Shown here piece by piece: positions 11,189-56,352 of a stretch of 64,000 bases of DNA (position 1 is the first letter of the stretch; each line of letters opens with the position of its first letter). This DNA comes from Acidobacteriota bacterium (GTDB lineage: Bacteria; Acidobacteriota; Terriglobia; Acidiferrales; UBA7541), in the NCBI GenBank assembly GCA_013289855.1, contig JABCZD010000003.1, forward strand, positions 62,001 to 126,000. The letters run 5' to 3'. Under the pieces are notes generated by a model. It was given only the letters and a program-made list of their open reading frames with translations, ran no database searches and was not told the DNA's origin. The position numbers and the translations under genes are program-made.

Positions 11189-11632
11189 TTGAAGAGTCTG
11201 TTGCAAACAGCGGGTCGGTCGAACGTGGCGCGCAGTAGGGCGCGGCGGTGGCGAACCTCCGGGTTCACGCTGATCGAGTTGATGATCGTCATCACCATTA
11301 TTTTGATCCTGCTGGGCATCGCGGCGGGAAGGTACACCCAGTCCGTGCATCGCGCGCGCGAAGCGGTGTTACGGCAGGACTTGTATGAATTGCGCAAAGC
11401 AATCGACAACTACACGCTGGATAAGCAAGCCGCGCCGCAATCCCTGGACGATATGGTGCAGGCGAAGTATCTGCATTCCGTTCCCATTGATCCGATGACG
11501 CGCCAGGCGGATTGGGTTCCGGTATTCGAGAATGTGGTGCTGAGCCCGGATCAGAACAGCACCGGCATGACCGACGTGCATTCCAACAGCGGAGAAATCG
11601 CGCTGGACGGCACCGCCTATAACACCTGGTAG
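11189..11632 (+). CDS. type II secretion GspG-like pseudopilin, second copy
   Basis: The 147-residue protein has a prepilin leader ending in SG before FTLIELMIVITIILILLGIAAG, with Glu at +5. The head contains HSVPIDPMTRQADWV and ends in TAYNTW, both closely matching the previous gene, so the pair are paralogs. I chose the TTG at 11189 because CGGGAG lies about 8 nt upstream. A GTG at 11225 is an alternative. It is 76 nt downstream of the first copy on the same strand and probably part of the same operon, which may end near the hairpin at 11709. Confidence 0.88.
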   Translation: MKSLLQTAGRSNVARSRARRWRTSGFTLIELMIVITIILILLGIAAGRYTQSVHRAREAVLRQDLYELRKAIDNYTLDKQAAPQSLDDMVQAKYLHSVPIDPMTRQADWVPVFENVVLSPDQNSTGMTDVHSNSGEIALDGTAYNTW

Positions 11633-11708
11633 ATGGTAGACCACAACCCCTAACGTCGGCAGTGGTGCTGCAAGACGCCGCGCCTCATGCGCTCCAACAA
11701 AGATGAAA

Positions 11709-11737
11709 ACGGCTCAGGATGGAGCATCCTGAGCCGT
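11709..11737 (-). terminator. 13-bp stem hairpin, intrinsic terminator
   Basis: A perfect 13-bp stem (ACGGCTCAGGATG paired with its complement) closes a 3-nt loop. Reading the minus strand, TTTT follows the stem, which fits a terminator for the small gene at 11778-11912. On the plus strand the run after the stem is only AACATTT, so termination of the pseudopilin operon is possible but weaker. Confidence 0.75.
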
Positions 11738-11777
11738 AACATTTAAACTGACGAGTGGGTTCGCTTGTACAACGCTC

Positions 11778-11912
11778 TTACTTCGGAGAGCTGCCATCCA
11801 CATATTTCGTGATTGTGATGTCGGACGTCTTCATTGAAATGTTCTTTCCCGTTTTGATGTTCGCCGTCAGCTTCGGCGCCTTGGTAATCTTCTTCGATGG
11901 TTTGCTGGTCAC
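11778..11912 (-). CDS. small basic protein, 44 residues, unknown function
   Basis: Reading the minus strand, a GTG at 11912 opens a 44-codon frame ending TAA at 11778. It is too short for usual gene length cut-offs. The GTG is preceded by CGGAGGAGGAATAAA, one of the strongest Shine-Dalgarno sequences in the window. The stop is followed 40 nt later by the terminator hairpin at 11709. The protein is Lys-rich and starts MTSKPSKKITKAPKLTANIK; it ends YVDGSSPK. I see no transmembrane helix or known motif. The pairing of a strong ribosome binding site with a terminator is why I call it a gene. Function unknown; a DNA- or RNA-binding small protein or a peptide is possible but only inference. Confidence 0.6.
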   Translation of the reverse strand: MTSKPSKKITKAPKLTANIKTGKNISMKTSDITITKYVDGSSPK

Positions 11913-12198
11913 TTTATTCCTCCTCCGAGAGTTTAGTACTGCAAAATGGCGGAACGTCCCACCTCTGGTGCTGCAACCGAAAGAGCAATTAGGCTGCCGG
12001 AAGAAGCAAGATTTAGGAGATAAGAAAAAAATTGAAAAGCAAAGACTTACATGAAGAACTGCTTTACCGAGGAGAAGTCAACCGCCGGATCGGTAAAAGT
12101 TTAACCAGCGGATGGTTAAAAAGTGACCGCCTCCAGGTTGCAGCGCCTGCGCGACGACTGCGATGCTGCAAATTCGCAAGAATAAGCATTGAAAAATC
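11913..12198. other. intergenic region between small gene and ArsR promoter
   Basis: This stretch lies between the divergent small gene (minus) and the ArsR promoter (plus). Long plus-strand reading frames through it lack protein features and a ribosome binding site. I see no other structure. Confidence 0.5.
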
Positions 12199-12228
12199 CT
12201 TGACAATAAACTTTGTCAAGGCTAACAT
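12199..12228 (+). promoter_or_regulatory. promoter with overlapping inverted repeat, upstream of ArsR gene
   Basis: A consensus -35 TTGACA (12200-12205) is separated by 17 nt from TAACAT (12223-12228), which matches four of six -10 positions. The -35 is part of an inverted repeat CTTGACA/TGTCAAG (12199-12205 and 12214-12220, 8-nt spacer). This is the layout expected of an operator that blocks RNA polymerase. The -10 ends only 7 nt before the GTG start codon at 12236, so the transcript would be leaderless or nearly so. Confidence 0.7.
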
Positions 12229-12235
12229 CTCGCTC

Positions 12236-12880
12236 GTGCTCGACATTCAAGTCATCGATGATCCGGCCGCGGCGACGGTGGCTTTGGAGCCCATGCGGAG
12301 TCGATTGCTCTCCGAACTGGCCGTGCCCGCCTCAGCGGCGACCTTGGCTACGCGGCTTGGCCTGGCTCGGCAGAAAGTCAACTACCATCTGCGCGGGCTG
12401 GAGACGCACGGGCTGGTGCGGCTGGCCGAGGAACGCAAGTGGGGCGGGCTGACGGAACGACTGCTCGTAGCGACGGCCGCTTCCTATGTCGTTTCGCCGG
12501 GCGCACTGGGGCCGGTCGCCGCGGACCCGAATCGGGAAATGGATAGGCTGTCCGCGAGCTATCTCATCGCCCTAGGCGCACGGGTCGTCAGGGAGGTTGG
12601 CGATCTTGTTCGTCGTGCGAAAGAGACGGACAAACGCCTGGCGACCCTGGCAGTGGATACCGAGGTTCGCTTCCGGTCGGCGACGGACCGGGCGGCTTTC
12701 AGCAACGAACTCACCGAGGCCATCACGAAACTGGTTGCGAAGTACCACGATGCATCCGCCCTCGGCGGCCGCGCGCATCGCCTGGTGGTCGTGGCGCACC
12801 CACTTCCGCAGAACGTGCCGCAAAACCTGCCGCAGAAATCCGATCCCCCGGTCGCTGCAAAATTCAAGGAGCCATCATGA
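12236..12880 (+). CDS. ArsR-family winged-helix transcriptional regulator
   Basis: The 214-residue protein has an ArsR-like winged helix near its N-terminus (SRLLSELAVPASAATLATRL, QKVNYHLRGLETHGLVRLAE). The recognition helix region is QKVNYHL. The C-terminal part (about 95-214) is helical and may sense a ligand or dimerise. I chose GTG at 12236, which lies immediately after the promoter; longer starts to 12032 would put the promoter inside the gene. Its stop overlaps the ATG of the next gene by 4 bp (ATGA), so the two are translationally coupled. ArsR plus SRPBCC pairs are a known pattern in which the regulator controls the partner. The inverted repeat in its own promoter suggests autorepression. 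Confidence 0.85.
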   Translation: MLDIQVIDDPAAATVALEPMRSRLLSELAVPASAATLATRLGLARQKVNYHLRGLETHGLVRLAEERKWGGLTERLLVATAASYVVSPGALGPVAADPNREMDRLSASYLIALGARVVREVGDLVRRAKETDKRLATLAVDTEVRFRSATDRAAFSNELTEAITKLVAKYHDASALGGRAHRLVVVAHPLPQNVPQNLPQKSDPPVAAKFKEPS

Positions 12881-21445: not shown

Positions 21446-21847
21446 TCAGTTGTTGTCTTCCTCGGTTGAAGAAAGAAAGATACGCCCGGCGAGAACTTCG
21501 CGAATCGCGGGCAACAAATCGGTGTCCCTGCGATTCTTCGCGACATATCCAGAAGCTCCCGCGTCCATACAGACGTCTATGAAGGTCAGGTCGGAATGAA
21601 CGGTCAAGAACACTATTTTGGCACGAGACCCTGATTGCTTTAGTTGCTTCGCGGCTTCGATGCCGTTCAGGACTGGCATGGAGATGTCCGTGATAATCAG
21701 GTCAGGCTCCAATCTGATAGCGGTCTCGACCAGCGTCTTGCCGTTGCGGACGTTTCCAATAACCTCGTATGTTGGTCCGAGAATTTCTTCAACCAACTCC
21801 GGAATGCCGGGATGGTCGTCTGCGATGAGTATGCGCACCTTGCTCAT
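21446..21847 (-). CDS. stand-alone response regulator receiver protein
   Basis: The 133-residue protein is only a REC domain. It shows the acidic pocket D10-D11 (ILIADDHPG), phospho-acceptor D54 (LIITDISMPVLNG), the switch Thr in FLTVHSD and K in GYVAKNRRD. The sequence resembles NarL-type receivers, but the LuxR-like HTH is missing; a short acidic tail (STEEDNN) takes its place. It could act through protein contacts or as a phosphate sink. The nearest plus-strand gene, a zinc ribbon protein at 21994, is divergent. No histidine kinase is adjacent. Confidence 0.88.
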   Translation of the reverse strand: MSKVRILIADDHPGIPELVEEILGPTYEVIGNVRNGKTLVETAIRLEPDLIITDISMPVLNGIEAAKQLKQSGSRAKIVFLTVHSDLTFIDVCMDAGASGYVAKNRRDTDLLPAIREVLAGRIFLSSTEEDNN

Positions 21848-25903: not shown

Positions 25904-26245
25904 ATGGTCAATCGTCGTATGTTCCGGCCTGGTTTTCCGGACGTGAAAGAGCCTGCCTCAGCGCGCCCGCAGCATACTAATGGGGGCGTGATCCCCAACA
26001 AGAAGCCTGCCCCGCCAGAGATGACGCACGCCGAGAACTTCTATTGGGTCAAGCAGATGCAGTCGCACACGCCGATGGCCGTGGTGCTGGAAAATGGCGA
26101 AGTGCTGAAGGGCACCGTGGAATGGTACGACCGCGATTGCATCAAGCTCACGCGCACTGGCAGCCCCAACTTGCTCGTGTTCAAGCGTGTCATTAAATAT
26201 GTCTATAAAGACGGCGAAGAATCCGCCAGCGGCGGCGAAGAGTAG
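25904..26245 (+). CDS. Hfq-like RNA chaperone (Sm fold)
   Basis: The 113-residue protein has about 45 N-terminal residues rich in Pro and Arg, then the Sm-like domain: MAVVLENGEVLKGTVEWYDR and CIKLTRTGSPNLLVFKRVIK, ending KYVYKDGEE. Hfq proteins bind small RNAs as a hexamer and the motif VFKRVIKYV corresponds to Sm2. The N-terminal extension is atypical. The ATG is preceded by AGAAGGAG. The gene stands alone after holB with a 113-bp gap. Confidence 0.85.
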   Translation: MVNRRMFRPGFPDVKEPASARPQHTNGGVIPNKKPAPPEMTHAENFYWVKQMQSHTPMAVVLENGEVLKGTVEWYDRDCIKLTRTGSPNLLVFKRVIKYVYKDGEESASGGEE

Positions 26246-56037: not shown

Positions 56038-56352
56038 CTACGACTTCAGGTACATCATCGCCAGCGTGAACAGCACCAGCGTCTCGACGAACACCAGGCC
56101 CAGAATCATCGCTGCGCGAATCGGTCCTGCCGCTCCAGGATTGCGTGCCATCCCTTCGCAAGCCGCTGACGCGATGCGGCCCTGTCCGAGGCCGCAGCCA
56201 AACGCAGCCGCGCCCATGCCGATCGCCACTGCCAACGCCGTCAGGCCTTTGCCGCCACCGCCTGCCGCCGCATCTGCGCCTTGCGCAAACGCCGCAGGCG
56301 CCACCATCAGTACGCCCACTAGGGACGTCAGTACTACCAGCAACTTCTTCAT
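56038..56352 (-). CDS. atpE: F-type ATP synthase subunit c
   Basis: I chose ATG 56352 (AAGGAGG 6 nt upstream), giving 104 residues. It starts with a hydrophobic signal-like segment (KKLLVVLTSLVGVLMVAPAA), longer than the standard c subunit, then two helices. E90 is the ion-binding carboxylate in LGLVFVETLVLF. Q57 in GCGLGQGRIA and T91 occupy positions that, by known Na+-binding c subunits, coordinate sodium; the Tyr found four residues later there is missing. Ion preference is therefore uncertain. The gene ends at a strong terminator. Confidence 0.93.
   Translation of the reverse strand: MKKLLVVLTSLVGVLMVAPAAFAQGADAAAGGGGKGLTALAVAIGMGAAAFGCGLGQGRIASAACEGMARNPGAAGPIRAAMILGLVFVETLVLFTLAMMYLKS

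Follow-up and report, generated by a model that had tools for sequence, protein, structure and literature searches.

A probable lineage-specific gene for a 44-residue, lysine-rich protein in a rearranged spacer of an Acidobacteriota genome

We analyzed a 64,000-nucleotide stretch of DNA from an Acidobacteriota bacterium (hereafter, the window), in which a 44-codon open reading frame (ORF) lies on the minus strand between a pseudopilin-like gene and a pair of genes for a regulator and an AHSA1/SRPBCC protein (Table 1). A secretin gene and two pseudopilin-like genes on the plus strand end at position 11632, converging on the small ORF, and on the other side the AHSA1/SRPBCC gene starts at 12877, after the HTH_20 regulator gene. 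The minus strand here reads CTCGGAGGAGGAATAAAGTGACCAGC; the order at its start is CGGAGGAGG, then AATAAA, then the GTG codon at 11912, and the TAA stop codon occupies positions 11780-11778.

Table 1. Features at the locus of the small ORF, with positions in the window
Feature	Positions	Strand	Evidence and remarks
44-codon ORF, MTSKPSKKITKAPKLTANIKTGKNISMKTSDITITKYVDGSSPK	11778..11912	minus	GTG start, TAA stop; sequence and ORF list; synonymous-codon test, P = 5e-5
Shine-Dalgarno sequence, CGGAGGAGG	11919..11927	minus	6 nt before GTG
Intrinsic terminator with a CTC loop on a 13-bp stem; its T-rich tail continues below 11709	11709..11737	minus	terminator scan and folding
Lineage-specific spacer containing the small ORF, bounded by the pseudopilin gene on one side and the HTH/AHSA1 pair on the other	11633..12229		comparison with relatives
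Pseudopilin-like gene (N_methyl, weak T2SSG), converging on the small ORF	11189..11632	plus	Pfam
HTH_20 regulator gene, divergent from the small ORF; probable start near 12230	12230..12880	plus	Pfam

A sequence-only reading of this DNA had proposed a GTG start at 11912 with a strong Shine-Dalgarno (SD) sequence, a frame running to 11778 and a lysine-rich product of 44 residues, all of which were confirmed when the sequence was read directly and compared with the ORF list (Lys, 10/44 residues; Asp, 2). The AGGAGG located 6 nt 5' of the GTG is the ribosome-binding site expected of a bacterial small-protein gene, and the SD-region leader displayed no unusual structure (z = -0.78). Elsewhere in the window, an exact AGGAGG precedes a start only once, at 56352, and the gene there is a real one, that of the ATP synthase c subunit. 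When the 598-bp spacer was randomised under a first-order Markov model, 0.8% of the resulting sequences had an ORF of 40 codons or more with an exact AGGAGG 4-9 nt before its start.

We evaluated codon usage with a synonymous-codon test, in which the protein is kept fixed and codons are drawn by base composition, using a codon table derived from mechanically chosen long ORFs of the window that include a few wrong picks. The small ORF scored +8.1, compared with -8.7 (sd 4.4) for the null, indicating that it fits the genes of the window far beyond what base composition predicts, and its score was above that of 94% of segments from the long genes of the window. The same frame remains open for 54 further codons upstream of the GTG, where the codon score is like that of non-coding DNA (P = 0.72); we accordingly rejected this extension as coding sequence. 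GC3 was 0.72 in the small ORF, 0.68 in the window genes and 0.41 in the upstream in-frame stretch. Host-like codon usage is thus confined to the frame, as expected of a small-protein gene, and since the stretch upstream scores as non-coding, the coding signal begins at the GTG, as the ribosome-binding site also indicates.

The codon signal could instead be claimed for the opposite strand, on which a frame at 11755-12054 (plus) would encode a hydrophobic product of 99 amino acids and scores well for codon usage over its overlap with the minus-strand ORF (P = 1e-4). However, codon-aligned antisense frames of real genes generally score well (anti0 control), and outside the overlap this frame lacks a codon signal (P = 0.30, GC3 0.44); it is also without an SD sequence. 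We therefore rejected the 99-residue ORF as a codon shadow whose signal is confined to the overlap, and regard it as very unlikely to be the real gene.

The 13-bp hairpin with TTTT that had been described after the frame is present, oriented on the minus strand, with TTTT as its T run. Its stem is perfect (13 pairs, 3-nt loop), it stands 40 nt beyond the stop codon of the small ORF in the same direction, and the terminator scan gave TTTCATCTTT as its tail. The 101-nt 3' region has a folding energy of -36.3 kcal/mol (z = -4.36), and 0 of 200 shuffled sequences were equally stable. DNA matches to the hairpin in other genomes are terminators downstream of tRNA-fMet genes, on the strand opposite to that of the pilin gene; this terminator type is common, and we rejected these matches as support for the small gene. 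No good sigma-70-like promoter was found near the small ORF, and the sole minus-strand promoter match is located 267 nt upstream of the GTG, within the palindrome of the HTH gene.

A short SD-bearing ORF with a terminator within 40 nt would also suit a leader peptide whose attenuator controls a downstream gene. The gene layout argues strongly against this possibility: the nearest recognised downstream gene on the same strand encodes SmpB (8044-7520) and lies more than 3.6 kb away, with the plus-strand secretin and pseudopilin genes in the interval. The ORF contains no regulatory-codon run either, and leader-peptide attenuation, rejected on the layout, is hardly credible here. A toxin-antitoxin reading was also rejected, given the hydrophilic character of the peptide and the lack of a partner gene.

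We searched for homologues of the small ORF and found none in 35 other members of the genus, in 88 other members of the family, or in samples of 399 genomes from the class and 396 genomes from the phylum. In 60 relatives, the best match had E = 0.21, and no comparable SD-led small ORF was present at those loci; the sole other match in its own genome (E = 0.65) is attributable to chance, as is a match in phages, to a tape-measure protein (E = 6). Plasmids yielded no homologue, and searches of NCBIfam, PHROGs and the PDB yielded no homologue. Peptide patterns, both exact and degenerate (the latter from an alignment that paired the ORF with a conservative variant invented solely to widen the search), identified no homologue in GTDB contigs and viral contigs (IMG/VR), in scans that depend on short stretches being identical or nearly so and that would overlook remote relatives. 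Among everything searched, the small ORF occurs in one genome only. The sequence-only reading had stated beforehand that a frame not conserved in close relatives would refute the gene, and this is the outcome: neither a homologue nor orthologous spacer DNA was found.

The spacer itself is specific to this lineage. One relative (G013) shares its end at 12155-12240, where the HTH gene has its leader, and another (G001) shares ~49 bp of that end; the remaining spacer has no counterpart in either genome, and in both of them the HTH gene adjoins other genes. In a genus-wide search with the spacer DNA, the significant matches were the HTH-gene leader and the generic terminator hairpin, and the others were weak and short. 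Of 29 relatives, 15 or more have an intact tRNA-fMet gene within 330 bp after the orthologous pseudopilin gene, often with a terminator behind it, and ARAGORN confirmed this tRNA at three checked loci. No tRNA is present at the spacer locus of the source genome, whose intact tRNA-fMet gene (L067) is located on another contig (C13). Because the pseudopilin side and the HTH side are not adjacent in relatives and the tRNA-fMet gene is missing here, the spacer with the small gene is, as judged from these comparisons, a lineage-specific junction, which explains why no orthologous DNA is found in the genus. With the entire spacer missing from relatives, they offer no orthologous sequence that could show the frame either preserved or disrupted, and the conservation test thus indicates lineage restriction and not a lack of coding. 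The small ORF, being without conservation, carries no sign of selection.

Several other observations were made around the spacer and elsewhere. The tRNA-fMet gene on contig C13 is followed by integrase-like sequence, as read by eye, which suggests an integration hotspot, and exact or near-exact copies of the tRNA-fMet 3' end, 46 and 29 bp in length, are found at G000:C15:21274-21319 (L068) and 21696-21724 (L069), ~400 bp apart; they resemble attachment-site remnants. A palindrome, TTGACAATAAACTTTGTCAA, at 12200-12219 overlaps the -35 element of the HTH_20 regulator gene, and because palindromes of the type TTGACAA-N6-TTGTCAA occur at the equivalent place in G013, G001 and G005, it is a likely candidate for an autoregulatory operator of the HTH and AHSA1 pair. 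The spacer also contains an operator-like inverted repeat, TTTAACCA-GCGGA-TGGTTAAA, at 12100-12120. The HTH-regulator match in G013 (L061, G013:C20:68923-69555) was reported with two internal TGA codons; the ORF list gives an open frame of 204 amino acids there, and these codons may fall outside the gene proper. A gene for 113 amino acids at 25904-26245 of the window encodes an N-terminal extension and then, over residues 53-100, an Hfq-related domain (Hfq_1, E = 1e-7).

The absence of conservation at both the protein and DNA levels favors a chance ORF, lying in a spacer that is transcribed or within a small regulatory RNA, in which case the SD-like GGAGGAGG and the terminator would belong to a non-coding transcript. 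A length of 44 codons is short, and terminators are common. However, codon usage fits at P = 5e-5 and only within the frame, an SD sequence with such an ORF is expected in 0.8% of such spacers, and the region matched no Rfam family even at E = 1. We consider this explanation unlikely, although it deserves to be taken seriously.

No known motif had been recognised in the product, and this holds at curated thresholds, where the sole lead is a sub-threshold Hcp-like stretch. Pfam T6SS_HCP (PF05638) matched residues 13-44 at profile positions 33-65 (E = 0.031), with 15 bits against a cut-off of 23.5 bits and over 33/129 positions, which does not make the protein a member by score. The small ORF might nevertheless be a remnant or derivative of an Hcp gene (type VI secretion tube) of which the remainder is lost or unrelated, since residues 19-44 correspond to an Hcp stretch ending D-x-x-S-P-K: in class members the sequence is, for example, HGDYVITKYVDKATPK or EPFVITKYLDVSSPK, compared with SDITITKYVDGSSPK here, and same-class Hcps contain stretches such as VITKYVDKATPK and VITKYLDVSSPK. 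One of 50,000 shuffled sequences scored as high against a profile of 30 same-class Hcps, but this value concerns a single model picked after searching 24,736. Moreover, the remainder of the ORF does not resemble Hcp, the upstream frame contains no Hcp match and the downstream frames none by eye, the genome (assembly ~90% complete) has no Hcp over the cut-off and 0 matches to TssC/VipB (PF05943), and the intact SD sequence, stop codon and terminator are unlike decay. Descent from an Hcp gene is thus improbable. It would be far-fetched to suppose that the protein retains one Hcp-like strand and acts independently of a type VI system, for example as a peptide that caps the type VI tubes of neighboring bacteria or counters them by mimicry.

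A strong ribosome-binding site, together with native codon choice and a dedicated transcription stop signal, indicates that a 44-residue protein is probably encoded, and we assign a probability of roughly 0.6 to a genuine small gene that is both protein-coding and lineage-specific. Of the complete gene unit proposed earlier, the SD sequence, the frame-confined codon usage and the terminator stand, and translation is predicted. The gene is best read, from its sequence context, as an orphan that was acquired recently or has newly arisen: because it lies within DNA that replaced the ancestral tRNA-fMet neighborhood of the pseudopilin operon, its arrival or origin was probably part of that rearrangement. 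Transcription from a promoter within the spacer would yield a short monocistronic mRNA, a few hundred nt long and terminated by the 11709 hairpin, on which AGGAGG would drive strong translation of a peptide with a net charge of approximately +8. A single-sequence AlphaFold model displayed no regular structure and no strands (pTM 0.28), so that the product is most likely a basic, disordered peptide. With neither helices nor strands of any length predicted, it would most likely stay in the cytoplasm and bind nucleic acid or another acidic partner; nucleic-acid binding in particular is a guess from charge that we hold to be doubtful.

The locus is a clean case of a small gene that falls below annotation length cut-offs yet bears every sequence mark of translation, and it shows orphan small genes sitting in rearranged DNA, here a replaced tRNA-fMet neighborhood. 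On its own, it changes little, pending demonstrated translation or a homologue. With respect to known proteins, residues 19-44 resemble an internal strand of Hcp (PF05638) ending ITKYxDxxSPK; however, the match is sub-threshold, spans approximately one-quarter of the family profile and is accompanied by no other Hcp features. A parallel may be drawn with unannotated small proteins of bacteria, encoded by no more than 50 codons, that ribosome profiling found in, for example, Salmonella (PMC5345727), mycobacteria (PMC4633059) and M. tuberculosis (PMC9094748). The present gene differs from these in being known from its sequence alone, but it resembles them in being short, under annotation length cut-offs and skipped by standard annotation, and it is probably an ordinary example of the unannotated orphan small-protein genes in bacterial genomes.
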